Shown: positions 9,990 to 55,636 of the stretch, piece by piece
How the letters are laid out: the number at the start of each line of letters is the position of its first letter
How positions within the stretch are numbered: the stretch's first letter is position 1
Assembly: GCA_012271165.1 (NCBI GenBank)
Contig: JAAXGX010000116.1
Span: forward strand, 1,171 to 57,391
DNA from: Vicinamibacteraceae bacterium
GTDB taxonomy: Bacteria; Acidobacteriota; Vicinamibacteria; Vicinamibacterales; UBA8438
DNA length: 56,221 nt
Reading direction: 5' to 3'
Notes under the pieces: model-generated
Told to the model about the DNA's origin: nothing
The model's database searches: none
What the model saw: the letters and a program-made list of their open reading frames with translations, nothing else
Made by a program: the position numbers and the translations under genes

Positions 9990-10810
9990 TCGCGAACCAC
10001 CCGCTGGCGCCGCGTGCTGAAGAAGATGCGCAGCTCCATGCGGAAGTTGTACAGCTTCGGGAGCCACACGTCGGGCTCGACGCGCTCGAACTCGAGGCTG
10101 CCCACGGCCTCGTTGAGCGTCGCCAGCCCCAGGAGGTAGCGCACCGGCGAGTCCATCCGGAACTCGACCCGGGCAACGCCGTAGTCGCTCTGGGCCACGT
10201 ACATCGTGCCGCTCGAGCGGTTCAGGGCCTTGTCGATGCGCGTCTTCTCCGGCAACCTGCCCGCGCGCGGCGTGAAGGCGATGGCCCAGCACGGCTCGCC
10301 GGCGATCGTCTCGACGCCGACAATCGAGGCCTCGTAGCGGCCGAGGAGCTCCGGGCCGAGGCGGACCTGGCGCTCGTCGTTCGTCTCGGCCCGGCCGCCC
10401 CCCTCGCGCGCCCGCTCCCGGGCTTCGCGGATGAACTCGGCGCGCTTCTCGCGCTCGTCGCGCTGCTGCCCGGCGTCGAGCGGCTGCCCGTCGCGGAGGA
10501 TCAGCTCCTCGTAGAGCTCGCCCTCGAGCGGGTAGCGCCGGTACTCGCGCGTCTCGGTCTCCGTGACCGCGCCCTCCTCGTCGAGCCGGTCGCTCGTCGA
10601 GACGATGCGCGACTCGTAGCGCAGCTCGGACTCGTTCTCGTCCTGCCGTTCCGCACGCTCGAGCATGCGCTCGATGATCTCTTCGAGCGGGGGCGCATCG
10701 CGGGCGGCGGGATCGGGCGCCGCCGCCGCGGGAGGCGCGGCCTCCTGGGCCGGAAACGCTGCGGCCGTCGCCAGGATGACGCCGGCCGCCATGGCTGCAA
10801 GGTGTCGCAT
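9947..10810 (-). CDS. Secreted LolA/MucB-like periplasmic protein
   Basis: A 287-residue protein with a signal peptide (residues 1-21, ending FPAQ-EA). The middle is highly charged (about 40-150), and the C-terminal part forms a predicted beta-rich sheet (CWAIAFTPRAG, SGTMYVAQSDYGVARVEFRM, VWLPKLYNFRMELRIFF). That part resembles the half-barrel fold of LolA and of the sigma-E regulators, which bind lipidated chains. It is first in the three-gene operon with the octaheme cytochrome, overlapping it by 43 bases. It might chaperone or anchor a lipidated component; this is inference from fold and position. The start ATG begins the signal peptide. Confidence 0.72.
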   Translation of the reverse strand: MRHLAAMAAGVILATAAAFPAQEAAPPAAAAPDPAARDAPPLEEIIERMLERAERQDENESELRYESRIVSTSDRLDEEGAVTETETREYRRYPLEGELYEELILRDGQPLDAGQQRDEREKRAEFIREARERAREGGGRAETNDERQVRLGPELLGRYEASIVGVETIAGEPCWAIAFTPRAGRLPEKTRIDKALNRSSGTMYVAQSDYGVARVEFRMDSPVRYLLGLATLNEAVGSLEFERVEPDVWLPKLYNFRMELRIFFSTRRQRVVREWVERQLLDGEPAL

Positions 10811-10882
10811 CGGATTGATGGTAGCACCGACGGCGCGCGTCCGCGCGGGGCGGGTCCGGCGCTATACTGCGGACCGTTGCCG

Positions 10883-11473
10883 ATGTCCGCCGCCAGCCCG
10901 CTCCCGGTGCTCGTCGTGAGCTGCTCGCTGAACGCGTCGAGCCGCTCCCACCGTCTGGCCTGCGCCGCCCGGACCGCGCTGCGGGCGCTGGACGTCGACG
11001 CCGAGCTGATCGATCTGCGGGAGTGGGAGCTGCCGTTCTGCGACGGCGGCGGCAGCTACGAGCACCCATCGGTCGCGCCGCTCGCGGGCCGCATCGAGCG
11101 GGCCGCGGCGGTGCTCGTGGCGGCGCCGGTCTACAACTACGACCTGAACGCGGCCGCCAAGAACCTCGTGGAGCTGACCGGCTCGGCCTGGAGCGAGAAG
11201 CCCGTCGGCTTCCTGTGCACGGCCGGCGCCCGCAGCAGCTACATGTCGCCGATCGGCCTGGCGAACAGCCTGATGTTCGACTTCCGCAGCCTGATCATCC
11301 CGCGCTTCGTCTATGCCGTGAAGGACGACTTCGAGGCGGACGGCGAGCCGGCGGAGCCGCTGCGGGCGCGCGTCGAGCAGCTCGCGCGCACGGCGGTCGC
11401 CCTGGCGCGCGCCCTGGCCCGGCTGCAGGCCTCGAACGGCACCGAATCCGAAGCGAAAACCGGCCCTGATTGA
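10883..11473 (+). CDS. NADPH-dependent FMN reductase family protein
   Basis: A 196-residue flavodoxin-fold reductase. LVVSCSLNASSRSHRLAC (about 9-26) is the FMN phosphate-binding loop of the SsuE/ChrR-like family. VLVAAPVYNYDLNAAAKNLV (about 80-100) is the PxYN segment that contacts the isoalloxazine ring, and the GFLCTAGARSSYMS stretch closes the site. Such enzymes supply reduced FMN to monooxygenases or reduce quinones and metals in the cytoplasm. The ATG at 10883 starts the first beta strand; upstream in-frame codons are unconserved. A TATACT -10-like element at 10863-10868 lies 15-20 bases upstream, which would make the 5' leader very short. The gene is divergent from the LolA-like gene. 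Confidence 0.85.
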   Translation: MSAASPLPVLVVSCSLNASSRSHRLACAARTALRALDVDAELIDLREWELPFCDGGGSYEHPSVAPLAGRIERAAAVLVAAPVYNYDLNAAAKNLVELTGSAWSEKPVGFLCTAGARSSYMSPIGLANSLMFDFRSLIIPRFVYAVKDDFEADGEPAEPLRARVEQLARTAVALARALARLQASNGTESEAKTGPD

Positions 11474-27782: not shown

Positions 27783-30700
27783 CTACCAGTCGTACTGGCC
27801 GCCGACCTTGAACAGGCGGCCGTTCATGATCTGCGTGATGCGCGGGAAGTTGTCCGCGTAGTTGTCGTCCACGAACGAGACGTAGTTCGCGTTGAAGATG
27901 TTGAAGATGTCGAACCAGGCGCGCACGCGGGCCCCGCCGAAGTTGATGATCTTCGTGAACCGCAGGTCGAGCTGGTTGAGCCGCGGCTCGTGCTGCGTGG
28001 AGATGGTGTTGAACGTCTGCGAGGCCACCGCTGCGCTCGTGGTCGGGTACGACGTGAAGAACCCGGTGCCCGCCGGGAGGAGCTGCACGTTTTCCTCGCC
28101 GACCGCCACCGGCCGCCCGAGCATGGCCTCTGCAAAGGCCCGCTCCGCCGGGTCCGCGAGCGCGTCGTACTCCGCCTCGTGCAGGATTCCGGCGATGTTC
28201 TGGTAGACGAACGAGACCTCGGTGTCGTACGGCAGCGGATAGCTGCCGTTGATCTTGAACTGCGTGCCGGCCAGCCACGGCTCCGAAACCTGACAGTACC
28301 CCGGCCGGTTCTGGGTCGGGTTGTCCACCACGAAGCACTCGCTCCAGGTCTGCGAGCCGGTGGTCAGCCCGCCGGCCAGCGTGGCCCCGTTGGGCAGCCG
28401 CCCGCTGAAGTTGAAGTCGACCCCGTTGAAGTCCATCCACTTGTCGCCGAAGTCCGAGGCCGGCACGGTCACGAGGTCCTCGCCGCGGTCGAGCCCGGCC
28501 TGCGTAATGGTCCAGAGGTTGCAAAGCTGCGTCCCGCTGACGCTGCGGAGCCCGGGATCGGTCGGGGCGGTGATGCAGTACTCGCCGTAGTCGTCCGGGG
28601 TGACGTTCAGGTTGTCGATGACCGTGAAGCCGTCGAACTTCGTGCGGTAGTAGCCGACCTCGATCGTCCAGCCCTCGGCCAGCTCGTGCTGGACGGCGAA
28701 CGACGTCTGCCACTGGCCCTGCCGCGTGCCCCAGCCGCGCAGCAGGTCGTCGCGGTAGCGGTTCACGATGACGGGGGTGCCGAAGTTCGGGTCGCGGATC
28801 GCCCCGCACTCGCCGTTAGCCTCGAAGTTGTCGAAGTCGCAGTCGGGGTTGAGGTCGCCGTTGCCCGGGGGGAGCCCCAGGAACGGGAACAGGTTGTCGT
28901 TCCACGGGCGGGACGCCTGGACCGAGAACGACTCCATCGGGTTGACGTCCTGCGCGATGTTCGTGCCGATGCCCAGCACGTAGCGGCCGAACGATCCCTT
29001 GATGGCGGTCCGGCCGTCCCCGAACAGGTCGTACGCCGCACCCACCCGCGGAGCGATGTCGTGATAGTACGGGGCGCCGTCGATCGCCGCGACCGTGAAC
29101 GAATCCGTGAACCGGCCCTGGGGGTGGGTCTGCTCGGGGATGTAGCCGTTCAGGTGGTCCCAGCGCACGCCCAGGTTGAGCGTCAGCCGGTCGATGGTCC
29201 ACTGGTCCTGCGCGAACACCGCGACCTCGTGCGCCCGCTGATCCGACAGGCGCGGCGTGGCGTACTGGTTGACCCCGAACGAGACGCCCGGCGCGACGAA
29301 GTCGTACGACAGGTCGTTGTGGATGTACACGTTGAGGTGCGCCTCGCGCAGCCAGAGATGCGAGTAGCCCACCTTCAGGTTGTGCGAGCCCGTGACGTAC
29401 GACACGGACGCCCGGCTGCTGAAGTTCGGGTGCTGCTCCTCCCCGTACAGGCACGGCGTCGCGTCGCAGACCACCTGGGTGTTGTGGACGAAGAAGAACG
29501 GGGTGAAGGTGCGGATCCCGACGTCGTCCGGGCGCACCGTGGGCTGCAGCTTGGGCGAGGCGCGCGTCTTGAGCATCGACGCCCCGGCCTGGAACAGCAG
29601 CCGGTTGGTGACCGGCATGGTCCAGGACGCCTGCGACAGGTTCACCGGATCGAACGTGTAGAGCGCCGACGCGTCCTTGTCGACGAAGCCGTACTGCGAC
29701 CAGAAGTTGCAGAAGCAACTGCTCTGGTCGCTGCGCGAGAAGTTGAACTTGTGCCGCTCGCTCGCCTGCCAAGTCAGCCGCAGGCTGTTGTCCCGCTGGT
29801 GGATGTCGAAGTCCACCGGCTGGTCGTAGTCGGGGGTGTAGATCGAGCTGTGCGGCGTCAGGTTGACGAAGCTGCTCGGCTGATACGACTGCGAGCCCCA
29901 CCAGCGGTGCGCCGTGTAGAACCACAGCCTGTCGCGCACGATCGGGCCGCCCACGCCGATGCCGTAGTCCCAGATCTTGCGGATCCCGTTGACCTGGCGT
30001 TCCAGCATGCCCCGCCGCCCCAGCTCCTCGTCCCAGTTCAGGTTCTGCATGTGCTCGTTCGTGCCGCTCATGTTCACGTAATAGCTGAACTGGTTGCCGC
30101 CCTCCTTCGGTATCGAGTTGACCCCGACGCCGCCGGTCCGCGACTCGGCGTCCATGGCGGCAATGGTCATCACGGTCTCCTGGATGGCCGCCTGGTTCGG
30201 GAAGTACAGCCGCGACGTGCCCGTCCCGGTGCCGATCCCGTTCGTGAAGTAGAAGCCGTCCCACTTGATGTCGCCGTCGGTGTCGTCGCTGCCGTGGATC
30301 TTGATGTGGCCCCACGTGTCGCCGATGCTGCCGCCGACGTCGTGCCCGCCGCCCAGGATCTCGGACGTCGCGCCCGGGGTCAGCGCGGCGTAGCCCCAGT
30401 AGGTCTTCCCGGTCGGGAGCGCGTCGAAGCGCTCGCGCGTGAAGGTGTCCTGGGTCGTCACGTTCTGGACGTCGATGATCGGGCTCGCACCCGACACGGT
30501 GACCGTCTCCTCGATGGAGCCCACGGTCATCTGCGCGTCCACGTTCGCCGCGAAGCCCGAGCTGAGCTCGATGCCTTCGCGGACGAAGGTCGAGAAGCCG
30601 GGCAGGGTGAAGGTGACGCTGTAGGTCCCGGGCCGCAGGGCCTCGATGGCGTAGAGCCCCGCGCCGTCGCTGATGCTCGTCCGCACTCCCTCGATGAGGG

Positions 30701-30860
30701 CGGGACTCCTGGCCTCCACCGTCACGCCGGGGAGGACGCCGCCGGTCTCGTCTGTCACGGAACCGGCGATGCTGCCGGTCTGGGCCGCGGACGCGGCCGG
30801 GAGCAGGAAGGTAGTCGCGAACGCCAGACACGCCGTCCGAACGCCTCTTCGCCTCTGCAC
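27783..30860 (-). CDS. TonB-dependent outer-membrane receptor with N-terminal carboxypeptidase-regulatory domain
   Basis: A 1025-residue outer-membrane receptor. The signal peptide (ACLAFATTFLLPAASAAQ) is followed by a carboxypeptidase regulatory-like beta-sandwich (about 28-115: GSIAGSVTDETGGVLPGVTV, GLYAIEALRPGTYSVTFTLP). A plug region follows with SIEETVTVSGASPIIDV and the long 22-strand barrel. The C-terminus ends in FKVGGQYDW, with an aromatic last residue as needed for BAM recognition. This Oar-like architecture is abundant in Acidobacteriota, where the proteins are thought to import oligosaccharides or peptides. The gene stands alone; no SusD-like partner is near. The start is the first ATG with a signal peptide and a G-rich upstream region. 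Confidence 0.92.
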   Translation of the reverse strand: MQRRRGVRTACLAFATTFLLPAASAAQTGSIAGSVTDETGGVLPGVTVEARSPALIEGVRTSISDGAGLYAIEALRPGTYSVTFTLPGFSTFVREGIELSSGFAANVDAQMTVGSIEETVTVSGASPIIDVQNVTTQDTFTRERFDALPTGKTYWGYAALTPGATSEILGGGHDVGGSIGDTWGHIKIHGSDDTDGDIKWDGFYFTNGIGTGTGTSRLYFPNQAAIQETVMTIAAMDAESRTGGVGVNSIPKEGGNQFSYYVNMSGTNEHMQNLNWDEELGRRGMLERQVNGIRKIWDYGIGVGGPIVRDRLWFYTAHRWWGSQSYQPSSFVNLTPHSSIYTPDYDQPVDFDIHQRDNSLRLTWQASERHKFNFSRSDQSSCFCNFWSQYGFVDKDASALYTFDPVNLSQASWTMPVTNRLLFQAGASMLKTRASPKLQPTVRPDDVGIRTFTPFFFVHNTQVVCDATPCLYGEEQHPNFSSRASVSYVTGSHNLKVGYSHLWLREAHLNVYIHNDLSYDFVAPGVSFGVNQYATPRLSDQRAHEVAVFAQDQWTIDRLTLNLGVRWDHLNGYIPEQTHPQGRFTDSFTVAAIDGAPYYHDIAPRVGAAYDLFGDGRTAIKGSFGRYVLGIGTNIAQDVNPMESFSVQASRPWNDNLFPFLGLPPGNGDLNPDCDFDNFEANGECGAIRDPNFGTPVIVNRYRDDLLRGWGTRQGQWQTSFAVQHELAEGWTIEVGYYRTKFDGFTVIDNLNVTPDDYGEYCITAPTDPGLRSVSGTQLCNLWTITQAGLDRGEDLVTVPASDFGDKWMDFNGVDFNFSGRLPNGATLAGGLTTGSQTWSECFVVDNPTQNRPGYCQVSEPWLAGTQFKINGSYPLPYDTEVSFVYQNIAGILHEAEYDALADPAERAFAEAMLGRPVAVGEENVQLLPAGTGFFTSYPTTSAAVASQTFNTISTQHEPRLNQLDLRFTKIINFGGARVRAWFDIFNIFNANYVSFVDDNYADNFPRITQIMNGRLFKVGGQYDW

Positions 30861-31883: not shown

Positions 31884-32324
31884 ATGCGCATCGATGTACG
31901 GTACGGCGTGATGGTTCTGGCGGCGGTCTTCGCGGGCGGCGTGTTCCTCGGCCTGGCGCTCGACGGCGGGAAGGTTGCCCGGGCGCAGTCGAGCTCGGTG
32001 TTCGAGCTGCGGACCTACACGGCCAACGAGGGCAGGCTCGAGGGGCTGAAGGAGGAGTTCCGCGGCTACGCGGCCCGCATCTTCGAGCGTCACGGGATGA
32101 AGAACGTCGGCTACTGGGTGCCCACCGACGCGCCGTTGTCAGACGATACGCTGATCTATATCCTGCAGCATGACAGCCGGGAGGCGGCGCAGCAGAGTTG
32201 GGACGCGTTCCGCAACGACCCGGAATGGCGCGCGGCGTTCGAAGAGCTCAACCGGGACGGCCGGCTGGCCGCGTCGGTCGAGTCGGTGTACATGGAAGCG
32301 ACCGATTTTTCGCCGCTGCAGTAG
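31884..32324 (+). CDS. Exported NIPSNAP-family protein
   Basis: A 146-residue protein. Residues 1-35 contain a hydrophobic leader (YGVMVLAAVFAGGVFLGLAL, then RAQSS), suggesting export or membrane anchoring. The rest is one NIPSNAP dimeric alpha/beta-barrel domain: FELRTYTANEGRLEGLKEEF, HGMKNVGYWVPTD, TLIYILQHDSREAAQQSW and FRNDPEWRAAFEE. NIPSNAP folds resemble EthD/antibiotic-monooxygenase barrels, but no catalytic function is established. AAGGAGA precedes the ATG. It lies 32 bases before the aldolase and opens the plus-strand block that includes the PQQ and copper enzymes. Confidence 0.85.
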   Translation: MRIDVRYGVMVLAAVFAGGVFLGLALDGGKVARAQSSSVFELRTYTANEGRLEGLKEEFRGYAARIFERHGMKNVGYWVPTDAPLSDDTLIYILQHDSREAAQQSWDAFRNDPEWRAAFEELNRDGRLAASVESVYMEATDFSPLQ

Positions 32325-32356
32325 CGAGCGACCCGGCCACGGAAGGAGATCGTGCG

Positions 32357-33352
32357 ATGAGTGAGCGACCCCCGCAGGATACCGCTGCGGGACATTGGGT
32401 CTCGTACCGCCCCGAGATCAGGGTGCTGGACTGCACCATCCGCGACGGCGGTCTGATGAACGACCACCAGTTCGGCGACGAGACCGTGCGGGCCGTGTAC
32501 CGGGCGTGCGTCGACAGCGGCATCGACTACATGGAGATCGGGTACGTCAATTCGCGCCGGCAGTTTCCGCCGGGCCAGTTCGGGCCCTGGAAGCACTGCG
32601 TGGAGAGCGACATCCGCCGCATCGTGGGCGACAACGACACGGCGCTGAAGCTGTCGGCGATGGCCGACGCCGAGAAGAGCGACTACCGGGAAGACATCCT
32701 GCCCAGGTCGGAGAGCGTCGTGGACCTGATCCGGGTGGCCACCTACATCCACCAGATCCCCCTGGCGCTGGACATGATCAAGGACGCCCACGACAAGGGC
32801 TACGAGACGAGCCTCAACCTGATGGCCCTGTCCACGGTGCCCGACGGCGAGCTGCACGAGGCGCTGGCGCTGGCGGCCGAGTCCGAGGCGGACGTGGTCT
32901 GCATCGTCGACAGCTTCGGCGCGCTGTACGGCGAGCAGATCGACGGCTACGTGAAGACCTTCCAGAGCTATACCGCGGGGAACGGCAAGGAAGTGGGCAT
33001 GCACGCCCACAACAACCGCCAGCTGGCGTTCGCCAACACCGTGCAGGCCACGGTCAAGGGCGCCAACCGGCTCGACGCCAGCATGGCCGGTCTCGGCCGG
33101 GGCGCGGGCAACTGCCCGTTGGAGCTGCTGCTCAGCTTCCTGCACAATCCCAAGTTCCGGCTGCGGCCCGTGCTGCACTGCATCCAGCACCACATCGAGC
33201 CGATGCGCGAGGCCCTCAAGTGGGGCTTCGACTACCCGTACATGTTGACCGGGGTGCTCAATCAGCACCCGCGGGCCGGGATGGCCTTCAACGAGTCGGC
33301 GGACCGGGGCGACATCATCAAGTTCTACGACTCGCTCGAAGATCCGGATTGA
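32357..33352 (+). CDS. DRE-TIM metallolyase / HMGL-like aldolase
   Basis: A 331-residue TIM-barrel enzyme of the HMGL/isopropylmalate-synthase-like superfamily. LDCTIRDGGLMNDHQF supplies the catalytic Arg-Asp pair (the DxxRDG motif), VGMHAHNNRQLAFAN the HxH metal ligands, and AGLGRGAGNCPLELLL the glycine-rich loop near the active site. It is close in layout to 4-hydroxy-2-oxovalerate aldolases and the aldolase-catalytic-domain proteins found in polysaccharide loci. The ATG is preceded by GGAAGGAG. It is the only plainly cytoplasmic enzyme in a row of exported redox proteins. It may process the carbon skeleton released by them, which is inference. Confidence 0.87.
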   Translation: MSERPPQDTAAGHWVSYRPEIRVLDCTIRDGGLMNDHQFGDETVRAVYRACVDSGIDYMEIGYVNSRRQFPPGQFGPWKHCVESDIRRIVGDNDTALKLSAMADAEKSDYREDILPRSESVVDLIRVATYIHQIPLALDMIKDAHDKGYETSLNLMALSTVPDGELHEALALAAESEADVVCIVDSFGALYGEQIDGYVKTFQSYTAGNGKEVGMHAHNNRQLAFANTVQATVKGANRLDASMAGLGRGAGNCPLELLLSFLHNPKFRLRPVLHCIQHHIEPMREALKWGFDYPYMLTGVLNQHPRAGMAFNESADRGDIIKFYDSLEDPD

Positions 33353-33415
33353 CGGAGCCGATCGCGCGCCGCGCCCCGGCGCGCGGCCGGCGCTCGCGCT
33401 GAACGGAGGGTGCCG

Positions 33416-35509
33416 ATGCATCGACGACGACGTGGGCGGCGTCCGGACGGGCTCGTTGGCGGAACCATCGCCGCCGCGGTTGCGCTGGCGCTGGCGCCGT
33501 CCTCCGCGCCGGCGCAGCTCGCTTCCGCGGCGTACACCGCGGCCGAGGCCGAGGCGGGCCGCGCGGTGTACGACCAGTCCTGCGCGTCGTGCCACATGCC
33601 CAACCTGAGCGGGCAGTTCGAGGCGCCGGAGCTGGCCGGGCCGAGCTTCCGCGGGACGTGGGGCGATCGGCCGGTCGCCGAGCTGCTCGACCTCGTGCGC
33701 GCGACGATGCCGACCGGGGCGCCCGGCTCGCTCGCCCCGGATGCCTACAGCAGCGTGGTCGCCTACCTCCTGCAGGCGAACGGCGTGGCGGCCGGGAGCG
33801 TGGCGCTGGGCGGCGCCCCGGCGTCCATGCCGGCCGGCGCGCCGCCGGCCGCGGACGCGCGCGCGGGAACGCGGGTGTTCCAGCCGATCGCCGACCGCGC
33901 GCCCGTCACCGACGCGATGCTGCTGGACCCCGACCCGGCCGACTGGCTCATCTACCGGCGGACCTACGACGGGTGGGGCCACAGTCCGCTGGACCAGATC
34001 ACGCGCGAGAACGTCGGCCGGCTGCAGCTCGCCTGGGTCTGGGCGATGGACGACGGGCGCAACCAGCCGACGCCGCTGGTCTACGACGGCGTGATGTACC
34101 TCACCAGCCCCGGCAACGTCGTGCACGCGCTCGACGCCGCCACCGGCACGCTGCTCTGGGAGTACCGCCGGCCGCTGCCGGAGGCGCTGCGGGGCGCCAA
34201 CAGCCGCAATCTGGCCATCTACGACGACAAGCTCTTCATGGGGACGCGCGACGCGTTCGTCGCGGCGCTCGACAGCCGCACGGGCGAGCTGGCCTGGGAG
34301 ACCCGGATGGCCGACTACAACGACGGCTACTCCAACACCAGCGGGCCGATCGTCGCCGGCGGGCGCGTCATCAACGGCATCAACGGCTGCTCGCGCTTCA
34401 TGCCCGACAGCTGCTTCATCACGGCGCACGACGCGGCGACCGGCGAGGAGCTGTGGCGCCGGCTCACCATCGCCGCGCCGGGCGAGCCGGGGGGCGACTC
34501 CTGGGGCGATCTGCCGCTGGCGCTGCGCGGCGGCGGCGACTCGTGGATACCCGGCAGCTACGATCCCGAGCTGGATCTGCTGTTCTGGCCGGTCGCGCAG
34601 GCCAAGCCCTGGGTGCCCGCCAGCCGCGGCCTGACGGTCCACGACCCGGCGCTGTACACGAACTCGACGCTCGCGCTCGATCCCCGCGACGGCACCATCC
34701 GCTGGTACCGGCAGCACGTCCCCGGCGAGGCGCTCGACCTCGACGAGGGCTTCGAGCAGGTGCTCATCGACAGCGGCGGGCGCAAGGCCCTGTTCACGAT
34801 CGGCAAGCACGGCGTCCTCTGGAAGCTCGACCGCGAGACGGGCGCGTTCCTCGGGCACGTCGAGACCGTCTTCCAGAACGTGTTCGAGCGCATCGATCCG
34901 GACACGGGCATCGTGACGTACCGCCAGGACATCGCGGACGCGGGCATCGGCGACTGGGTTTCCGTGTGCCCGAGCACGGCCGGCGGCCACAACTGGCACG
35001 CGACGGGCTACAGCCCCGAGACGCGCCTGCTGATCATCCCGCTGAGCCAGAGCTGCCTGGAGATCGCGGGCCGCGAGGTGGCGCTCGAGATCGGCTCGGG
35101 CGGCTCGCAGGCCGACCGGACGTGGTTCGAGATGCCCGGCACGAACGGCAACCTGGGCAAGCTGGCCGCATACGACGTCGATACGCTGGAGGAGCGCTGG
35201 AGCATCGAGCAGCGCGCCGCGTTCGCGACGGCCGTGCTGACGACCGCCGGCGGGCTCGCGTTCGCCGGCGACGTGGACCGCTACTTCCGGGCGCTCGACG
35301 CCGCCACCGGCGACGTGCTGTGGGAAACGCGGCTGGGCACGTCCGTGCAGGGGTTCCCCGTCTCGTACGCCGTCGGCGGCACGCAGTACGTCGCCGTGTC
35401 GGCCGGGCTGGGCGGCGGCAGCCCCCGGCGGGTGCCGATGCTGCTGAGTCCGGACATCGTGCACCCGGACACCGGCAACGCGCTGTACGTCTTCGCGCTG
35501 CGCGAGTAG
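33416..35509 (+). CDS. Quinohemoprotein: N-terminal cytochrome c fused to PQQ-dependent dehydrogenase
   Basis: A 697-residue periplasmic protein. The leader ([19 protein letters not shown]) is followed by a cytochrome c domain (about 40-125) with heme site CASCH at 56-60 and Met in [10 protein letters not shown] as probable sixth ligand. An eight-bladed PQQ propeller follows from about 165, with W-motif strands such as [15 protein letters not shown]. The catalytic Asp is Asp441 in ALDLDEGF, with Asp443 two residues on, the pattern of lanthanide-dependent enzymes. The N-terminal rather than C-terminal heme domain is unlike classical quinohemoprotein alcohol dehydrogenases. There is no vicinal Cys pair. 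GGAGGG precedes the ATG; a GTG 6 bases upstream is less likely. Substrate unknown. Confidence 0.88.
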
Positions 35510-35647
35510 AGTAGGGGACGCCGCTCGGCCGCGCTCAAAGAACGCTTGGCGAAAGACGCCGACTGGTTCACACTAGGGGATTACCGGCCACGCCTGTCGC
35601 GGCCGGCGCGTTTCGTTGTCACACGCGGGGATCTGGAGGCTTACACG

Positions 35648-36943
35648 ATGTCACGCACCACTGGGTTCGGTCTCGTCGCCACTCTGGCGGTCGCACTCGG
35701 CGTCCTGGCCGCCGGGCCGGCCGCGGCGCAGGAAGCTGCGGCGCAGCCCACGTTCACCAAGGACGTTGCCCCGATTCTGCAGCGCTCGTGCCAGCACTGT
35801 CACCGGCCCGGCTCGATCGCCCCGATGTCGCTGCTGACGTACGAGGAGACGCGGCCCTGGGCGCGGTCCGTCAAGGACAAGGTCGTCACCCGCACGATGC
35901 CGCCGTGGTACATCGACAAGAACATCGGCATCCAGGAGTTCAAGTACGACTACTCGCTCAGCGACGAGGAGATCGCCACGATCGCCGCCTGGGTCGACGG
36001 CGGCGCGCCGCGCGGCAATCCGGCGGACATGCCGCCGCCGCGCGAGTTCCGCGACATCGCCGAGTGGCAGATCGGCGAGCCCGACTGGGTGGTGGAGCTC
36101 CCCGAGCCGTTCGTCGTGCCCGCCGAGGCGCCGAACTGGTGGGGCAACCTCGAGTCCGACTCCGGGCTGACCGAGGACCGCTGGGTCAGGGCGGTCGAGA
36201 CCAAGCCGTCGATCGAGGGCTTCCCGGTGGTGCATCACGCCGTGACCGGCGTGGTGGCCCCGGATGCCGAGGATGTCGACGGCATCGGCGAGTTCCTCAA
36301 CGAGTACGCGCTCGGCAAGAACGGCGACATCTACCCCGAGGGCACCGGCCGCCTGATCCCGGCGGGGTCGAAGATCCGCTTCAACATGCACTACGCCGCG
36401 ATCGGCGTCGAGACGACCGACCGGACGCGCGTCGGCCTGCAGTTCTATCCGCGGGGCGTCGTGCCGGAGCGCAAGATCATCGCGTCGCACGTGGGCGACG
36501 AGGAGGACCTCGACATCCCGGCCGGGGCGTCGAACGTGCGCCACGACGGGTACTACCGGCTCAAGGAGAACTCGCACATCACCGGCTTCCAGGCGCACCT
36601 GCACAACCTCGGCAAGCGCCAGTGCCTCGAGGCGATCTACCCCGACAACCGCGTGGAGACCCTGAGCTGCGCCGATTGGGACTTCGGGTGGCACATCGTC
36701 TACAACTACGAGGATCACGTGGCGCCGCTGCTGCCGAAGGGCACCATCCTGCACGTGATCAGCTGGCACGACAACTCGGAGGCCAACCGCTGGAACGACG
36801 ACCCGACCAACTGGACCGGTTTCGGCCAGCGGTCGAGCGATGACATGAGCTTCGCCTGGGTGAGCTGGTACGAGCTCGACGACGAGGCGTTCGAGAAGGA
36901 GCTCGAGGAGCGGCGGGCGCTGACTGCCAACAACGACGACTAG
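35648..36943 (+). CDS. Cytochrome c fused to copper type II (PHM/DBM-like) monooxygenase
   Basis: A 431-residue exported protein. The signal peptide (ATLAVALGVLAAGPAAA-QEA) is followed by a cytochrome c-like domain with heme site CQHCH at 48-52. A copper monooxygenase part then has His196-His197 (VVHHAV), His248 (FNMHY), His317-x-His319 (FQAHLHN) and Met400 (SDDMSFAW). These six match in order and kind the HH/H and HxH/M ligands of the CuH and CuM sites in peptidylglycine and dopamine monooxygenases. Such enzymes hydroxylate C-H bonds with O2 and a one-electron donor; here the fused heme could replace ascorbate. It follows the PQQ dehydrogenase by about 140 bases. Confidence 0.85.
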   Translation: MSRTTGFGLVATLAVALGVLAAGPAAAQEAAAQPTFTKDVAPILQRSCQHCHRPGSIAPMSLLTYEETRPWARSVKDKVVTRTMPPWYIDKNIGIQEFKYDYSLSDEEIATIAAWVDGGAPRGNPADMPPPREFRDIAEWQIGEPDWVVELPEPFVVPAEAPNWWGNLESDSGLTEDRWVRAVETKPSIEGFPVVHHAVTGVVAPDAEDVDGIGEFLNEYALGKNGDIYPEGTGRLIPAGSKIRFNMHYAAIGVETTDRTRVGLQFYPRGVVPERKIIASHVGDEEDLDIPAGASNVRHDGYYRLKENSHITGFQAHLHNLGKRQCLEAIYPDNRVETLSCADWDFGWHIVYNYEDHVAPLLPKGTILHVISWHDNSEANRWNDDPTNWTGFGQRSSDDMSFAWVSWYELDDEAFEKELEERRALTANNDD

Positions 36944-36969
36944 AACCGCGTCGTCGCGGGAAGAGCATC

Positions 36970-37836
36970 ATGAAGGGGCATAGTCGCATCGTCGGGGCGG
37001 CCGGTCTGGTTGCCTGGCTGGTCGTGTCGCTGGCAACGCCGGGGGCGGCGCAGGAGCGCTGGAACCGGGGCCAGAACATCCAGCCGGTCTTCGAGGGCTG
37101 GGAGCGGAACGACGACGGGTCGTTCACCATGGTCTTCGGCTACCTGAACCGGAACTACCAGGAGCAGCCGGTCGTCCCGGTCGGACCGAACAACTTCTTC
37201 GAGCCGGGTCCGGCCGACCGGGGCCAGCCGACGCACTTCTACAACCGGCGCCAGCAGTTCGTCTTCGAGGTGCGCGTGCCGGCTGACTGGGGGCGGGAGC
37301 AGGATCTGGTCTGGGCGGTGACCCACAACGGTCGGACCGACCGGGCCTTCGGCCACCTCTGGCCGGTGTGGGAGATCGACAACGTCGTCCGGCGCCAGAA
37401 CCGCGGCACGGGGTTCGCCCAGGGCTATTCCGACAACCAGCGGCCGAGCATCCGCCTGGCGGGCGCCGACCAGCTCGAGGTCACGTTGCCGGACACGCTC
37501 GAGATCGCCGTGCTCGCCGGCGACGACGGCATCCCGCCGCCGAACCCGGACATCCTGAAGCGGACGCTGCGGCCGGGTCCCAAGATGCAGGCCATGGTCA
37601 GCCCGCGGGACGCGGCCACGACGGGTCTGGCGGTGACCTGGCTCCACTGGCGCGGGGCCGGCGAGGTGTCGTTCGAGCCGCGGGTCCTGACGCTCGACGA
37701 GCAGGGGCAGGCCGTCACGCGCGTCAGCTTCAGCGCGCCGGGCACGTACGTTCTCCAGGCCGTGGCCGACGATACGGTCTTCACCACCCCCGTCAACGTG
37801 ACCGTGACCGTGAATCCGCAGGTCGCGGCGCCGTAG
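36970..37836 (+). CDS. Secreted beta-sandwich protein of unknown function
   Basis: A 288-residue protein with a signal peptide (VGAAGLVAWLVVSLATPGAA-QE). The first part has IQPVFEGWERNDDGSFTMVF, GYLNRNYQEQ and a conserved-looking GPNNFFEPGPADRGQPTHF. The C-terminal 80 residues (VSFEPRVLTLDEQGQAVTRV, SFSAPGTYVLQAVADD) look like an immunoglobulin-type or cadherin-like domain. I know this arrangement from acidobacterial genomes as an unnamed family. It begins 27 bases after the copper monooxygenase stop and ends 14 bases before the FG-GAP lipoprotein, so it belongs to the same transcript. A role as accessory or docking protein is inferred only from position. Confidence 0.78.
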   Translation: MKGHSRIVGAAGLVAWLVVSLATPGAAQERWNRGQNIQPVFEGWERNDDGSFTMVFGYLNRNYQEQPVVPVGPNNFFEPGPADRGQPTHFYNRRQQFVFEVRVPADWGREQDLVWAVTHNGRTDRAFGHLWPVWEIDNVVRRQNRGTGFAQGYSDNQRPSIRLAGADQLEVTLPDTLEIAVLAGDDGIPPPNPDILKRTLRPGPKMQAMVSPRDAATTGLAVTWLHWRGAGEVSFEPRVLTLDEQGQAVTRVSFSAPGTYVLQAVADDTVFTTPVNVTVTVNPQVAAP

Positions 37837-37849
37837 GGGCGGGGCGGGG

Positions 37850-39297
37850 ATGCGGCGGGGCCCGGGCGTCGCGGTCGTGGTCGCGCTGGCGGCCGCGGCC
37901 GGCTGCTCGGGCCCGGCATCCGGGAATGCGCCGGCCGCCGGGCCGCCGGCCGACGGTCCGCCGACCGTCGCGGACACGCCGACGCGCGCCCGCGCGGCGG
38001 ACGGCTCGTACATCTCCTGGCGCGAGCACATCATCGACGACCTTGCCGTCGGCGGGGTCGCCCTCGCGGGCAGCGACGGGCTGGCCATGGCCGACCTCGA
38101 TCGGGACGGCCACCTCGACGTCGTGTCCGTGCACGAATCCGACACGACCTACGACGGCGTTCCCGACGGCCACGTGCGGATCGCGTACGGCGCGGCCGAT
38201 CCGGACATCTGGGAGCGCTACACCCTGGCCGAGGGCCCCGAGGCGGGCGCCGCGGAGGACGTCGCCGTCGGCGACATGAACGGCGACGGCTATCCGGACG
38301 TCGTCGTGGCGTGCGAGCTCGCCCACCTGATCTACCTCGAGAACCCCGGCGCGGCAGGGCGAGCCGCGCACTGGAAGCGCGTGATCCCGTCCGCGGCGCG
38401 CGGGCGCGGGTCGTACATCCGCGTCTTCCTGGCGGACTTCGACGGCGACGGGCGGCCGGAGGTCGTCGCCGCCAACAAGGGCGCCCAGAACCCGGCGCGG
38501 GACACCGCCGAGACGCATCCGATCGCGTGGTTCGCGCTGCCCGCCGATCCGCTCGACGGCGACGCCTGGGTCGAGCACGAGCTCGCCCGCGTCATCGTCC
38601 CCATCAACGCACAGCCGGTCGACCTCGACGGCGACGGAGACCTCGACGTCGTCGGCGGCTCGCGCGGGGAGCAGCGGATCTTCTGGTTCGAGAACGTGAG
38701 CGCGGCCGACATCGCGTTCGTGGAGCACCGCATCGAGATCCGGCCGGCGTCGGCGGTCACGGGCTTCAACATGGACTTCGCCGATCTCGACGGCGACGGC
38801 CGCCTCGACATCGCGCTGCGGGACGAGGGTCGCGGTCTCGTCTGGCTGGCGCAGCCGGCCGAGCCGGGCGGCGCGTGGCGAGCCCACGCGATCGGCGACC
38901 TCGCGCCGGACCGGCTGGTCGGCTTCGTGCTCACGGACCTCGACGGCGACGGCCGCCGCGACGCGTTCACGGGCGCCTACAGCCAGGCACCGCGCGACGT
39001 CGACGCCGCCGAGCCGTCCGTCTCGCACCGGGCCGGCCGTCTGGCGTGGTTCCAGCAGCCGGACGATCCGGCCGGCGCCTGGACGCGCCACGACGTGTCC
39101 AGGCGCATCCGGGGCATCTTCGACAAGTTCGTGGCCCGCGACATGGACGCCGACGGTGACGTCGACCTGGTCGGCACGCGCGGCAACTCCGTGCCGTACG
39201 ACGGGTCTTCTGGCTCGAGCAGGTGCGCAGCGCCGAGCCGCTGCCGGCCTTCGACCAGGCCCGCGAGCGCGAGAGCCGCCAGTTGCCGCTGCCGTAG
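37850..39297 (+). CDS. FG-GAP/VCBS repeat lipoprotein, with frameshift near its end
   Basis: An exported protein with a lipobox leader (VALAAAAGCSG). At least six FG-GAP-like repeats carry Ca2+-binding DxDxDG loops (ADLDRDGHLDVV, GDMNGDGYPDVV, ADFDGDGRPEVV, VDLDGDGDLDVV, ADLDGDGRLDIA and TDLDGDGRRDAF), forming a beta-propeller. At 39203-39205 the frame breaks: GACGGGTCTTC gives GSSGSS, but one added G gives DGVFWLEQVRSAEPLPAFDQ and a TAG at 39295-39297, which clearly continues the repeat. The uncorrected frame runs on as nonsense to 39508. The cause is a one-base loss in a G-run, either real or an assembly error. It ends the redox gene block. Confidence 0.82.
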
Positions 39298-39361
39298 CAG
39301 CTCGCCCGTCCGCCGTACAAGGACCGCCGGCGCCCCCCGATCATCGCGGCGAAGGGCGGGT

Positions 39362-51255: not shown

Positions 51256-52032
51256 ATGAATCGACTGGTGCTCGCACGACGCCTTTCCGTCTGCGCGGTG
51301 CTCTGCCTGTTCGGGCTCGTCGGCCCGAGCGACGCGCAGGATCACACCGAGTACTCGCCCACCGACATCGAGTACGGCATCTCGGTGTACCGGGCGCAGT
51401 GCGCCGTCTGCCACGGCGAGAGCGGGGACGAGATCGCGGGCGTCGACTTCCGCAGCGGCCAGTTGCGCCGGGCCTCGTCCGACCGCGAGCTGCGGCAGCT
51501 CATCCAGGACGGCATTCCCGGCACCGGGATGCTGGCCTTCGACCTCGACACGGCCGAGATGACCGGCGTGGTGGCCTATCTGCGGAACTGGAACTACGAG
51601 GTCGACGCCATCTCGCTGGGCGATGCGGCGCGCGGCCAGTCGATCTTCGAGGGCAAGGCCGACTGCCTGAGCTGCCACCGCGTGAAGGGGCGCGGACCGC
51701 GGGTGGCGCCGGACCTGACGGCCATCGGCACCGGGCGCCCGCCGAGCTCGCTGCAGCGCACGCTGCTCGACCCGACCGGCACGATGCGGCCCATCAACCG
51801 TCCGGTGGAGCTGGTGCTGGCCGACGGCACGCGCGTCACGGGCCGCCGCCTCAACGAGGACACCTACACCGTGCAGATCATCGACGACCAGGAGCGCCTG
51901 CGGTCGTTCGACAAGGACCAGCTCCAGGAGTTCACGGTGCTGACCGAGTCGCCGATGCCCGCCTACGGCGACCTGCTCGACGAGCAGGAGCTGGCGGACC
52001 TGCTGGCGTATCTCGTTTCCCTGAAAGGCTGA
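51256..52032 (+). CDS. Diheme cytochrome c
   Basis: A 258-residue exported protein with a signal peptide (SVCAVLCLFGLVGPSDA-QDH). Two cytochrome c domains each carry one CxxCH site: CAVCH (about 49-53) and CLSCH (about 136-140). LIQDGIPGTGMLAF and TESPMPAYGDLL supply candidate Met sixth ligands. Between the second heme and the C-terminus is an inserted beta segment (PVELVLADGTRVTGRRLNED), as seen in cytochromes attached to PQQ or heme-binding membrane proteins. GAGAGGACA precedes the ATG. It ends 7 bases before the PQQ dehydrogenase gene, so it is the likely electron acceptor of that enzyme. Confidence 0.9.
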   Translation: MNRLVLARRLSVCAVLCLFGLVGPSDAQDHTEYSPTDIEYGISVYRAQCAVCHGESGDEIAGVDFRSGQLRRASSDRELRQLIQDGIPGTGMLAFDLDTAEMTGVVAYLRNWNYEVDAISLGDAARGQSIFEGKADCLSCHRVKGRGPRVAPDLTAIGTGRPPSSLQRTLLDPTGTMRPINRPVELVLADGTRVTGRRLNEDTYTVQIIDDQERLRSFDKDQLQEFTVLTESPMPAYGDLLDEQELADLLAYLVSLKG

Positions 52033-52039
52033 TATCACG

Positions 52040-53740
52040 ATGCGGGGAAACGCAGCGGCGCAGCGGATCGTGCTGGCGGTGGTCGTGAGCGTCATGGTCG
52101 CCGCCGGCCTGTCGGCGCAGGTGCCGTTCGAGCGCCTGCGCGAGGCGGCGGCCGAGCCGCACAACTGGCTCACCTACTCGGGCACCTACTTCAGCCAGCG
52201 CTACAGCGAGCTCGACCAGGTCACGCCGGAGAACGTCGACGATCTCCAACTGCAGTGGGTGTATCAGAACGCGGTCGCCGGCCCGTGGCAGTCGACGCCG
52301 CTGGTGGTCGACGGCGTCATGTATGTGACGCAGCGGCCCAACGACATCATCGCGCTCGACGCGCGGACGGGCCGCGTCTTCTGGATCTACCGCTACAACC
52401 CCTCGCCCAACCACCGGGCCTGCTGCGGATCGAACAACCGCGGCGTGGCCGTGCTGGGCGACCGCGTCTTCATGGCGACGCTCGACGCCCACGTCGTGGC
52501 CATCGACGCCACGACGGGCGTGGAGCTCTGGGACGTCACGCTGGCGGACATGGACCTCGCGTACTCCTTCACGCTGGCGCCGCTGGCCATCGAGGGCAAG
52601 GTGATCGTCGGCACGGCCGGCGGCGACCGAGGCGTCCGCGGGTTCATCGCGGCGCTCGACGCCGAGACCGGCGCGGAGGTGTGGCGCTTCCACACCATCC
52701 CGGGGCCGGGCGAGCCGGGGCACGAGACGTGGGAGCCGTGCCCGCCCGATCCGGTGACCTACTGCGATCCGGAGGCCTGGATGCACGGCGGGGCGGCCGC
52801 CTGGCTGACCGGGTCGTACGACCCGGAGCTGAACCTGATCTACTGGGGCACCGGCAATCCCGGACCGGACTTCTACCGCGAGCAGCGCCCGGGCGACAAC
52901 CTGTACTCGGACTCCGTGGTCGCGCTCGACGCCGACACGGGCGAGTTGCGCTGGTACTTCCAGTTCACGCCGGCCGACCCCTACGACTACGACGCCGTGC
53001 AGATCCCGGTGCTGGCGAACATCGAGCGCAACGACACCGAGTTCAAGGTGATGTTGTGGGCGAACCGCAACGGTTTCTACTACGTGCTGGACCGGGCCAC
53101 CGGGCGCTTCCTGACCGGGCTGCCCTTCATCGACCTCAACTGGGCGGAGGGGCTCGACGACAGCGGCCGGCCGGTGGAGACGCCGCAGCCGCCGGGCGAG
53201 CCCACGTTCCCCGGCGTGCAGGGCGGCACGAACTGGTACTCGCCGGCCTACAGCCCGCGGACCGAGCTGTTCTACATCCCTGCCTGGGAGAACTACGGCT
53301 CCGTCTTCGTGGGCGAGCCCCAGGAGTACCGGCCAGGCGAGTCGTTCATCGGTGGCCGGCCGACGACCTACGAGCCGGTGCCGGACGCGCCCACGCCCCC
53401 GGGCCTGACGCGGGGGCCGATCAACGACTGGACGGAGGAAGCCGGGCAAGGCGCGGTCATCGCGCTCGACGCGCTGAGCGGCGCGCAGCGCTGGAAGTTC
53501 GAGATGACCGACGTCATCAGCAGCGGCATCCTGACGACCGCCTCGAACGTGCTGTTCACGGGCGCCCGGTCGGGCTACTTCCAGGCGCTGCACGCCGAGA
53601 CCGGCGAGCTGCTGTGGAAGGCCAGCCTCGGCGGCCAGATCGTCAACGGCCCGATGACGTACGAGGTCGACGGCCGGCAGTACGTGGCCGTCATCTCGGG
53701 ACACTCGCTGTCGGCCTTCGCGCTGCGCGGGAGCGAGTGA
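52040..53740 (+). CDS. PQQ-dependent alcohol dehydrogenase (lanthanide-type signature)
   Basis: A 566-residue periplasmic quinoprotein. The signal peptide ends near VMVAAGLSA-QVP. Propeller W-motifs are clear (IIALDARTGRVFWIYRY, VVALDADTGELRWYFQF). Adjacent Cys128-Cys129 (ACCGSNNRG) form the vicinal disulfide above PQQ. Asn273 in WGTGNPGPDF is a metal ligand. The catalytic Asp316 is in DPYDYDAVQ, with Asp318 two residues on, where calcium enzymes have Ala or Thr and lanthanide enzymes have Asp. The position of the metal-ligand Glu (GAELGVRG in relatives) reads GGDRGVRG, so Asp196 replaces Glu. It follows the diheme cytochrome by 7 bases. Alcohol specificity is unknown. Confidence 0.92.
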   Translation: MRGNAAAQRIVLAVVVSVMVAAGLSAQVPFERLREAAAEPHNWLTYSGTYFSQRYSELDQVTPENVDDLQLQWVYQNAVAGPWQSTPLVVDGVMYVTQRPNDIIALDARTGRVFWIYRYNPSPNHRACCGSNNRGVAVLGDRVFMATLDAHVVAIDATTGVELWDVTLADMDLAYSFTLAPLAIEGKVIVGTAGGDRGVRGFIAALDAETGAEVWRFHTIPGPGEPGHETWEPCPPDPVTYCDPEAWMHGGAAAWLTGSYDPELNLIYWGTGNPGPDFYREQRPGDNLYSDSVVALDADTGELRWYFQFTPADPYDYDAVQIPVLANIERNDTEFKVMLWANRNGFYYVLDRATGRFLTGLPFIDLNWAEGLDDSGRPVETPQPPGEPTFPGVQGGTNWYSPAYSPRTELFYIPAWENYGSVFVGEPQEYRPGESFIGGRPTTYEPVPDAPTPPGLTRGPINDWTEEAGQGAVIALDALSGAQRWKFEMTDVISSGILTTASNVLFTGARSGYFQALHAETGELLWKASLGGQIVNGPMTYEVDGRQYVAVISGHSLSAFALRGSE

Positions 53741-53800: not shown

Positions 53801-55501
53801 TCAGGGGAGGGCGAACACGTAGACCGCGTTCCCGCCCTGCGGCCGCCGCTTGTCGGGCAGCAGGTCCGCCGGGATCATCCCGCCCCAGCTTCCGCCGCCG
53901 GTGCCGGTCGGCGCCGCCAGGTACTGCCGCCCGCCCGCCTCGTAGGTGATCGGAAAGCCCTGCAGCGACTGCGGCAGGCGCGTCTGCCACAGGATGTCGC
54001 CGTCCCCGGCGTCGAACACGTACAGGTTGCGGTCCCAGTCGCCCGCGACGACGATGTCGCCCGCGGTCGTCAGCGCCGCGGTGTTGATGGGCGTCCGCGT
54101 GCGGAAGCGCCAGTGGACCTCGCCCGTGCGCATGCTCATCGCCAGCAGCTCGCCGAGCTGCTCGGGGCTGTCGGGGTGCACGTGGTTCGTCCGCCGCACC
54201 GGCCCGGTCCCGCCCCCGCCCGGGACAAGATCGACCGGCCCGAACACGGCCGTCTCGCAGTTGAGGTTGATCGGGATGTAGAAGGTCTCGCGCGCAGGGT
54301 GGTACGACATGGCGCGCCAGCTCTTGAACCCCGCGGTGCTCGGGCACCAGAAGACCGGCTCCCCCAGCACCGGGTCCATCCCTTCGCGGTAGGTGACCTG
54401 GCCGGTTGCCGGGTCGACGTCGGCGAACGTCTGGTAGCCGAGATCCTTCGCGCTCCGGAACTGCCCGGTCTCGAGCGCGAGCTCCCACAGCACGGCCATC
54501 TTGCCCATGGTGAAGACCGACCGCTGGCCGTCGTAGTCCACCAGGATGCGCTCGAAGACCTCGTCCATGTCGAGCGTCTCGCCCGGCAGGTGCTGGTAGT
54601 ACCACTTCATCTCCCCGGTGTCGGGGTCGAGCGCGAGGGTGGAGTTCGTGTACAGCACGTCGCCGTCGGTCCCGCGGGCCGCCCGCGCCCAGGGCTTGGC
54701 CTGCGAGGTGCCGTGGAAGAGCGTCCGCGTAATCGGGTCGTAGCTGCCCGGGATCCACGAATCGCTGCCCGCCCGGAACATGAGCGGGAGGTCGCCCCAC
54801 GAGTCGCCGCCGCGCTCGCCGGGCCGGGCGATGGTGGACGTGCGCCACAGCTCGCGGCCCGTCGCCGCGTCGAGGCCGACGATGTAGCACGTGTCGTCGC
54901 GATAGCGGCCGCAGCCGGTCAGGCCGGACACCACGCGGCCGTCGGCGACGATGGCACCGCTCGAGAACTGGAAGCCGACGCCCTGCCCCACGTCGGTGTC
55001 CCAGACCACGTCGCCGCTGCGGGCGTCGAGCGCGATGACGTGCGCGTCGGCCGTGTTCAGGTAGATCATGTTCTGGTAGATGGCGATGTTGCGGTGCGCA
55101 CGGCCCGGGGGCGGCCCGCCGTAGCTGTCGCCGGGTGGTGGGGCGTCGCGGCGGTACTCCCACAGCAGCTCGCCGCTGGCCGCGTCCAGCGCGTGCACGA
55201 TCTCGCCCGGGTTCGCCAGGTACATCACGCCGTCGTAGACGAGCGGCGTCGTCTGCTGGGAGCCGTTGGCCAGGGCCCAGCTCCAGGCCAGGCGCAGGCC
55301 CGCGACGTTGTCGGTCGTGATCTCGTCGAGCGGGCTGTGGGCCTGGGCGTCGAGCGTGCGCCGCCAGTTCAGCCAGTCGGCCGGCGCCGGATTCTGCAGC
55401 GTCGCGTCGGTCACGGGCGTGAAATCGTCCACCTGGGCCAGCGCGGGGGCGCCCGCGAGCAGCAGGATGACAGTCAGGGAGGCCAACAGCCGGCAGGTCA
55501 T
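53801..55501 (-). CDS. PQQ-dependent dehydrogenase (heme-free relative of the 33 kb fusion)
   Basis: A 566-residue exported quinoprotein. The signal peptide is SLTVILLLAGAPALA-QVD. The propeller closely parallels the C-terminal part of the 33416-35509 fusion: ADWLNWRRTLDAQAHSPLDE, GSYDPITRTLFHGTSQAKPW and [20 protein letters not shown] have near-identical counterparts there, so the two are paralogues. Asp311 and Asp313 in ETLDMDEVF give the Asp-x-Asp pair. No heme domain and no vicinal Cys pair are present. The start at 55501 follows AAAGGAG with a 6-base gap, better than the ATG 6 bases upstream. It converges with the other PQQ dehydrogenase across a perfect hairpin. Confidence 0.9.
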   Translation of the reverse strand: MTCRLLASLTVILLLAGAPALAQVDDFTPVTDATLQNPAPADWLNWRRTLDAQAHSPLDEITTDNVAGLRLAWSWALANGSQQTTPLVYDGVMYLANPGEIVHALDAASGELLWEYRRDAPPPGDSYGGPPPGRAHRNIAIYQNMIYLNTADAHVIALDARSGDVVWDTDVGQGVGFQFSSGAIVADGRVVSGLTGCGRYRDDTCYIVGLDAATGRELWRTSTIARPGERGGDSWGDLPLMFRAGSDSWIPGSYDPITRTLFHGTSQAKPWARAARGTDGDVLYTNSTLALDPDTGEMKWYYQHLPGETLDMDEVFERILVDYDGQRSVFTMGKMAVLWELALETGQFRSAKDLGYQTFADVDPATGQVTYREGMDPVLGEPVFWCPSTAGFKSWRAMSYHPARETFYIPINLNCETAVFGPVDLVPGGGGTGPVRRTNHVHPDSPEQLGELLAMSMRTGEVHWRFRTRTPINTAALTTAGDIVVAGDWDRNLYVFDAGDGDILWQTRLPQSLQGFPITYEAGGRQYLAAPTGTGGGSWGGMIPADLLPDKRRPQGGNAVYVFALP

Positions 55502-55636
55502 GCGCATCTCCTTTGGGAAGCGTCGCTGGCCGCACGGTACGTGACGGCTCACGGCGAGTCAAGCGACGGCCTGCCGCGGGGTCGGCGGCCGAGCGACGGC
55601 TAGACATACCGCGATGGATCGGGCCGTTCTCGACGC

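Follow-up and report, generated by a model that had tools for sequence, protein, structure and literature searches.

The 56,221-nucleotide stretch of DNA analysed here (the window) comes from a Vicinamibacteraceae bacterium of the phylum Acidobacteriota (assembly GCA_012271165.1, contig JAAXGX010000116.1, positions 1,171 to 57,391 of the forward strand). It encodes a fusion of a cytochrome c domain with a copper monooxygenase of predicted PHM/DBH fold (35648-36943, + strand), assigned from an AlphaFold2 model and aligned ligands. The next gene (36970-37836, + strand) encodes a secreted two-domain beta protein, considered the partner of the copper enzyme from its adjacency and an AlphaFold2 model. 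The original prediction joined six genes of this region into one periplasmic hydroxylation-oxidation system and passed over the second protein as a secreted unknown. The present study revealed that this protein is the most conserved neighbour of the copper enzyme, and that the conserved unit is this pair rather than a six-gene pathway. We consider it probable that the core of the region is a two-gene cassette in which a secreted dicopper monooxygenase with an N-terminal c-type heme acts with a beta-sandwich/PKD partner in heme-fed C-H hydroxylation. The fold and the copper sites are of a known type; what sets this variant apart is its fused heme, its linked partner, and how far it has expanded.

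Predicted fold and copper sites of the monooxygenase

The AlphaFold2 model of the copper enzyme, based on 78 sequences, had a predicted local distance difference test score (pLDDT) of 92.5 and a predicted template modelling score of 0.88. It adopts the two-domain fold of the PHM/DBH catalytic core. In the VIA comparison, human dopamine beta-hydroxylase (DBH; 4zel_A) matched the model with Z 21.1 and a root-mean-square deviation of 2.8 over 266 aligned residues, and the best PHM entry (6ala_A) with Z 20.5 and a deviation of 2.8 over 244, while the next different fold reached only Z 8.5. Foldseek also retrieved DBH, at E 9.7e-12. The structure prediction that had been recommended as a check was thus performed, and its outcome is a DBH/PHM fold.

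The CuH ligands of the window enzyme are H196, H197, and H248, and the CuM ligands are H317, H319, and M400. Its heme site is C48xxC51H52, and M60 and M84 are conserved. The six ligands and C48, C51, and H52 are invariant columns of alignment A1, which took 35 of the 41 copies of the enzyme in the same assembly (its own genome). Given a start at the ATG at 35648, the residue numbers originally reported for the copper ligands and the heme are exact. The corresponding ligands of DBH are H262, H263, and H333 for CuH and H412, H414, and M487 for CuM, as given for the human enzyme in PMC4846438.

All six ligands were complete in 183 of 189 aligned rows, comprising the 41 own-genome copies, 54 copies from a genome of the same genus (G001), and 94 copies from genome_contigs loci. 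The latter are the 79 best loci of a longer list, a selection that favours close relatives. Since some of these loci are G001 contigs, the counts are not independent, and the 189 rows hold 178 distinct sequences; with duplicates removed, 172 of the 178 retained all six ligands. Among the remaining six, three are incomplete genes that run into the end of a contig or locus (L012, L034, and L060) and three have substituted ligands (L039, L194, and L080). The heme CxxCH and the Met of an MPPW motif were constant in every row ungapped at these positions. A distant paralogue present in both species (L039:9180-10343, - strand, in the own genome; L194:687-3230, + strand, in G001) has R, S, Q, E, and D in place of five copper His residues, and is possibly a non-copper copy.

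Pfam reported only a weak cytochrome match in the window copper protein (18.9 bits, cut-off 27). Therefore, the PHM/DBH assignment rests on the predicted structure and on intermediate relatives. The family Cu2_monoox_C (PF03712) was weakly matched by 5 of the 35 own paralogues (best E 0.0037) and not by the window protein. Its curated cut-off was exceeded by relatives in 4 of 60 Acidobacteriota genomes, and the same four match the profile of alignment A1 (best E 4.7e-129 in G048, 6.1e-81 in G075, 3.2e-92 in G082, and 2.5e-92 in G092). Four of these relatives were read and aligned, and each also has a CxxCH domain. The bacterial PF03712 proteins and the window family are alike in this respect, whereas the window protein and its own-genome paralogues remain under the cut-off or the E-value limit. 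Searched by sequence, the G075 protein retrieved human DBH (E 1.7e-7), and the alignment placed its motifs HYH, HMH, and EMC on their DBH equivalents. When it was aligned with the window protein, H248, H317, H319, and M400 shared columns and HH196/197 was invariant; through this relative, the residue-level correspondence to DBH covers four of the six ligands. The predicted fold, the conservation of ligands, and the G075 bridge together bear out the claim that this is a PHM/DBH-type copper enzyme with both copper-ligand sets and a heme domain.

The heme may be read in another manner, as a peroxidase or sensor site of a secreted copper protein that senses redox state or O2 or is driven by peroxide. 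A c-type heme with conserved Met candidates can have other roles, and in LPMO chemistry the use of O2 versus peroxide can be uncertain. However, both mononuclear copper sites are retained in 172 of the 178 sequences and would be needless for a simple sensor or peroxidase, and no sensor or signalling domain was found among the 12 families listed for 35 copper-enzyme paralogues. We regard this reading as quite improbable.

The window enzyme resembles human DBH (4ZEL) in its catalytic fold, in an equivalent two-site ligand set, and in an accessory domain that precedes the catalytic core, which is a DOMON domain in DBH (PMC4846438) and a c-type cytochrome here. It differs in being bacterial, in its low identity over the structural alignment (15 percent), and in its adjacent partner gene. 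Rat PHM (1PHM, 6ALA, and others) has the same core fold, with Z 16.0-20.5 across the entries listed, and the two copper-ligand sets; in contrast to PHM, the window enzyme has a fused heme domain, a secreted partner, and dozens of paralogues. The copper enzyme also has a signal-peptide-like N-terminus (read by eye), and we infer that it is periplasmic or extracellular.

The secreted partner

A homologue of the partner lies no more than 400 bases from 30 of the 41 own copper-enzyme genes; a scripted count arrives at 29, as one gene is divided over loci L011 and L012. It also lies beside 35 of the 54 copies in G001 and 83 of the 94 copies in the best 79 genome_contigs loci, 82 of them on the same strand. 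Of the 11 copies in these loci that lack it, eight sit near a locus end. Some copies share a single partner gene. Conversely, 28 of the 29 own-genome partner genes adjoin a copper enzyme. The exception is a partner-like gene (G000:C95:3882-4538) on a contig with no listed copper-enzyme match.

The distances among copper enzymes and those among their partners are correlated in the own genome (Mantel r 0.713, 28 pairs, permutation p 0.0005) and in G001 (r 0.667, 34 pairs, permutation p 0.0005). As these distances were taken within one genome, species history cannot produce the correlation.

The AlphaFold2 model of the partner had a pLDDT of 94.3. Its C-terminal domain resembles PKD/Ig domains, the structure matches were generic (best Z 9.5 over 101 residues), and the N-terminal domain was barely covered by them. 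The sole Pfam match of the partner protein in the window, to PKD, is weak (14.8 bits, cut-off 23.5); PKD was also weakly matched in 14 of 26 partner paralogues, and none of the family matches assigns a function. We considered whether the partner is a copper chaperone or redox protein. Alignment A4 (69 of 85 partner sequences of the genome_contigs loci and the window protein) contains 11 invariant positions in 70 sequences, none of which is His, Cys, or Met. This disfavours such a role, and a structural or substrate-binding function would fit the partner better than carriage of copper or electrons.

The PKD-like domain raises the question of whether these enzymes act on peptides or other polymers, by PHM-like amidation or LPMO-like cleavage, with the partner as a polymer-binding module. 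Proteins that degrade polymers often carry PKD/Ig-like accessory domains, PKD was weakly matched in the 14 partners noted above, and the fold matches to PHM and DBH are tied (Z 20.5 versus 21.1). However, there is no LPMO histidine brace: alignment A3 (77 of the 94 copper-enzyme sequences of the genome_contigs loci and the window protein) has no conserved N-terminal His, and its first invariant His is that of the heme CxxCH (His25, numbered from the assumed mature start). In addition, a peptidylamidoglycolate lyase was not seen next to the gene, although no search was aimed at one. Polymer substrates appear unlikely to us.

Copy number and distribution

The copper enzyme has 41 copies in the own genome, whose assembly is 3.7 Mb long and 72 percent complete, and 54 in G001 (4.2 Mb, 94 percent complete), which was counted separately. 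At least 13 copies are present in each of the other 24 family genomes that the search covered, giving a range of 13-54 over 25 family genomes. In other families of the order, 4 of 15 genomes carry copies (at least 1, 6, 11, and 14). These family and order counts are lower bounds, with at most 43 candidates scored per genome. In a phylum-wide sample, in which up to 7 candidates were scored per genome, at least one copy was found in 59 of 247 genomes. The family genome G006, which consists of three contigs, holds 22 copies; thus, fragmentation of the assemblies does not explain the high numbers.

A reciprocal best match in G001 was found for 30 of the 41 own copies, at 69-95 percent identity, and 29 of these 30 matches are closer than the nearest own paralogue. 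Therefore, much of the repertoire was already present before the two species diverged and has since been retained. This retention suggests different roles, and the paralogues are probably a set of different specificities that would act on different substrates.

A few genome_contigs loci carry names from outside the Acidobacteriota (Acidimicrobiia, Chloroflexi, Proteobacteria, and Bifidobacterium). The match places and scores of L058 (genome G275) are identical to those of G250, a genome of the same order, and L113 comes from a genome (G276) with 35 copies. The record titles of relatives point to soil, groundwater, and open water.

The PQQ dehydrogenase and the six-gene neighbourhood

Upstream of the copper enzyme, an N-terminal cytochrome c-pyrroloquinoline quinone (PQQ) dehydrogenase fusion is encoded at 33410-35509 (+ strand). 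It belongs to the PQQ propeller family (PF01011, 209.3 bits), and the own genome offers a PQQ supply (pqqC, 331.3 bits, cut-off 240). The heme domain of classical quinohemoprotein alcohol dehydrogenases is C-terminal to the PQQ propeller. In the window protein, PF13442 covers residues 45-120 (31.2 bits, cut-off 27) and the propeller extends from residue 179 onward; hence, the N-terminal placement stated in the original prediction is correct. Among solved structures, an alcohol dehydrogenase (4CVB, E 1.2e-111) gave the best match, and a sorbose dehydrogenase (4MH1, E 3.5e-99) is similar. The likeness is in the catalytic propeller; unlike these, the window protein has an N-terminal cytochrome c, and the alignments begin after it, at query residues 160 and 164, respectively. 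The protein fell under the cut-offs of both NCBIfam subfamilies (TIGR03075, 376.8 bits against 480; TIGR04528, 295.3 against 650). Since TIGR04528 describes acidobacterial quinoproteins called "empty", PQQ binding by this enzyme is not certain.

The conservation of the neighbourhood was assessed in 20 loci of other family genomes. We kept 12, one per genome (L120-L129, L137, and L138), whose copper enzyme exceeds the 694.7 bits attained by the closest own-genome paralogue of the window gene; these are taken as the nearest counterparts of that gene by score, not by a tree. The other eight were L139 (684.6 bits; partner present, PQQ and FG-GAP genes absent), L134 and L135 (at 670.0 and 646.4 bits, both with the partner), L132 of G002 (386.2 bits, with PQQ-like matches and with no partner detected), and the paralogue loci L130, L131, L133, and L136. 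The partner was present in all 12 kept loci. A same-strand PQQ dehydrogenase was found in eight, adjoining the enzyme in L120, L121, L122, L128, and L129 and lying approximately 1, 3, and 4 kb away in L123, L124, and L125. An FG-GAP homologue was also found in eight, with L125 cut by a contig end. NIPSNAP and aldolase genes, the two outermost upstream members of the proposed system, occurred in none of the 12 (L121 and L122 end before the place is visible) and in none of the 20. In the best 79 genome_contigs loci, many of which are cut, a PQQ homologue was present in 15, FG-GAP in 2, NIPSNAP in 1, and aldolase in 0 (phmmer thresholds of 1e-20, 1e-5, 1e-5, and 1e-10, respectively).

We therefore reject a conserved operon of six genes: the co-occurrence survey retained the partner throughout and the PQQ and FG-GAP genes in one lineage, and did not retain NIPSNAP and aldolase. 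The proposed link between the copper enzyme and the PQQ dehydrogenase recurs in that lineage (8 of 12 loci) but is not general. As a rule for the whole family, a PQQ neighbourhood is weakly supported; PQQ matches were obtained in 10 of 83 scanned own-genome neighbour open reading frames (172 had been selected), and the genome holds many PQQ homologues. Among the same 83 frames, five encode planctomycete-type proteins with DUF1592/1588/1585/1587/1595 and two encode DUF1552 (loci L009-L034).

In the remaining strong form of the original idea, these genes constitute a dedicated closed loop: an alcohol formed by the copper enzyme is oxidised by the heme-PQQ dehydrogenase, the electrons flow back through the hemes, and NIPSNAP and the aldolase process the product. 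PHM/DBH turnover uses two electrons and one O2 to yield an alcohol and water. PQQ-dependent oxidation of an alcohol returns two electrons, and a loop that hydroxylates and then oxidises is therefore balanced; the eight loci with a same-strand PQQ dehydrogenase are consistent with it. Of 26 genomes, eight, including the own genome, have a pqqC above the cut-off. Data on pqqC are available for 7 of the 12 genomes: pqqC and the locus PQQ gene are both present in G006, G010, and G012 and both absent from G001, G005, and G009, and G011 carries pqqC without the locus gene. These small numbers lie in the direction of a working PQQ link. Fungi provide a functional analogue, a cytochrome-bearing PQQ dehydrogenase that drives copper LPMOs (PMC5960967). 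However, NIPSNAP and the aldolase are missing from all 12 loci, the PQQ gene is missing from four of them, including that of the same genus, and most other copies have no PQQ gene nearby. We consider a dedicated loop doubtful. A coupling to the PQQ dehydrogenase in this one lineage is plausible but unproven.

Two more PQQ-propeller dehydrogenases are encoded in the window (52025-53737, + strand; 53804-55558, - strand), and Pfam at 1e-5 gave no heme domain for either.

Proposed mechanism and significance

In the two-gene cassette that we favour, the copper enzyme would hydroxylate C-H bonds of organic substrates with O2 outside the cytoplasm. The heme domain would take electrons from periplasmic donors and pass them to the copper sites, replacing ascorbate. 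The partner may recruit the substrate or hold the enzyme, and would not carry electrons. In the lineage of the window gene, the alcohol product, or an alcohol related to it, may be the substrate of the adjacent heme-PQQ dehydrogenase, whose two electrons could then support another round of hydroxylation.

Several results weigh against this interpretation. A search of solved structures with the window copper protein retrieved no PHM/DBH chain, nor did a profile of 78 relatives, which gave two weak heme-site matches (E 0.016 and 0.017), and the own-genome DNA has no PF03712 match at E 1e-5. The adjacent partner is missing from 11 of the 41 own copies and 19 of the 54 G001 copies, contig ends included. 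Joint duplication of the cassette, without physical contact of its products, can yield the Mantel correlation. As for the PQQ step, the matching locus in G001 contains the enzyme and the partner only, the PQQ and FG-GAP genes being missing, and G001 has no pqqC above the cut-off.

Precedents for such an electron supply are known from LPMO systems. In Cellvibrio, the c-type cytochrome domain CjX183 of Cbp2D reduces a bacterial copper monooxygenase (PMC8981238), a functional analogue of the supply proposed here; the differences are that this cytochrome is on another protein and that its partner is an LPMO. The pyranose dehydrogenase of Coprinopsis cinerea (AA12) is likewise a PQQ enzyme with an N-terminal cytochrome that feeds a copper monooxygenase (PMC5960967), whereas its cytochrome is of the heme b type (PMC4332668) and its partners are LPMOs, separate fungal proteins.

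The secreted heme-copper enzyme and its partner point to an unexplored bacterial route for oxidising organic matter outside the cell. The route by which electrons reach the two copper sites of PHM and DBH has long been debated. Both enzymes are best known from animals and use ascorbate there (for DBH, PMC4846438). Bacteria that carry dozens of paralogues with the heme built in would offer an independent system for studying electron delivery to the copper sites, as well as a wide range of natural variants for C-H hydroxylation. A large and poorly annotated set of oxygenases in uncultured Acidobacteria, possibly relevant to the turnover of recalcitrant organic matter, would also receive a name. 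Cognate pairing with the partner is a direct, testable prediction. The top full-text matches in PubMed Central included no paper on a heme-fused bacterial PHM/DBH family, which does not show its absence from print.

More tentatively, and with somewhat less confidence than doubt, we speculate that this acidobacterial family has built much of its extracellular oxidation on a large and old set of heme-wired dicopper enzymes of the PHM/DBH type, many with a cognate specificity partner. If so, this set would parallel the cytochrome P450 radiations in the periplasm, with a c-type heme instead of ascorbate as the electron gate.

Other features of the window

The six same-strand genes of the original prediction are present where it placed them, with small gaps between the open reading frames, and Pfam agrees on the identities of the NIPSNAP, aldolase, cytochrome-PQQ dehydrogenase, and FG-GAP proteins. 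The secreted NIPSNAP-domain protein (31884-32324, + strand; PF07978, 49.1 bits, cut-off 22.3) and the HMGL-like/4-hydroxy-2-oxovalerate aldolase-like enzyme (32357-33352, + strand; PF00682, 86.3 bits, cut-off 29) are neighbours that are not conserved with the system. The top NCBIfam score of the latter, 126.9 bits, is under its cut-off of 229. A scan for promoters and terminators yielded three promoter-like sites and was uninformative; the only one on the strand of the genes is within the NIPSNAP gene (32136).

The accessory gene downstream of the partner encodes an FG-GAP repeat lipoprotein-like protein (37850-39298, + strand; PF13517). As read, its frame ends at 39508. Compared with four orthologues, it is frame-shifted in the assembly near 39206; the orthologues continue in the pattern found in the other frame of the window up to 39298, and the end coordinate given in the original prediction agrees with this unshifted reading.

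Further upstream, on the opposite strand, 27783-30860 encodes an outer membrane beta-barrel protein with an N-terminal carboxypeptidase-regulatory domain, which appears TonB-receptor-like by eye. A large protein encoded at 8010-11069 (- strand) matches cytochrome c552 and cytochrome c7 and is likely a multiheme cytochrome.

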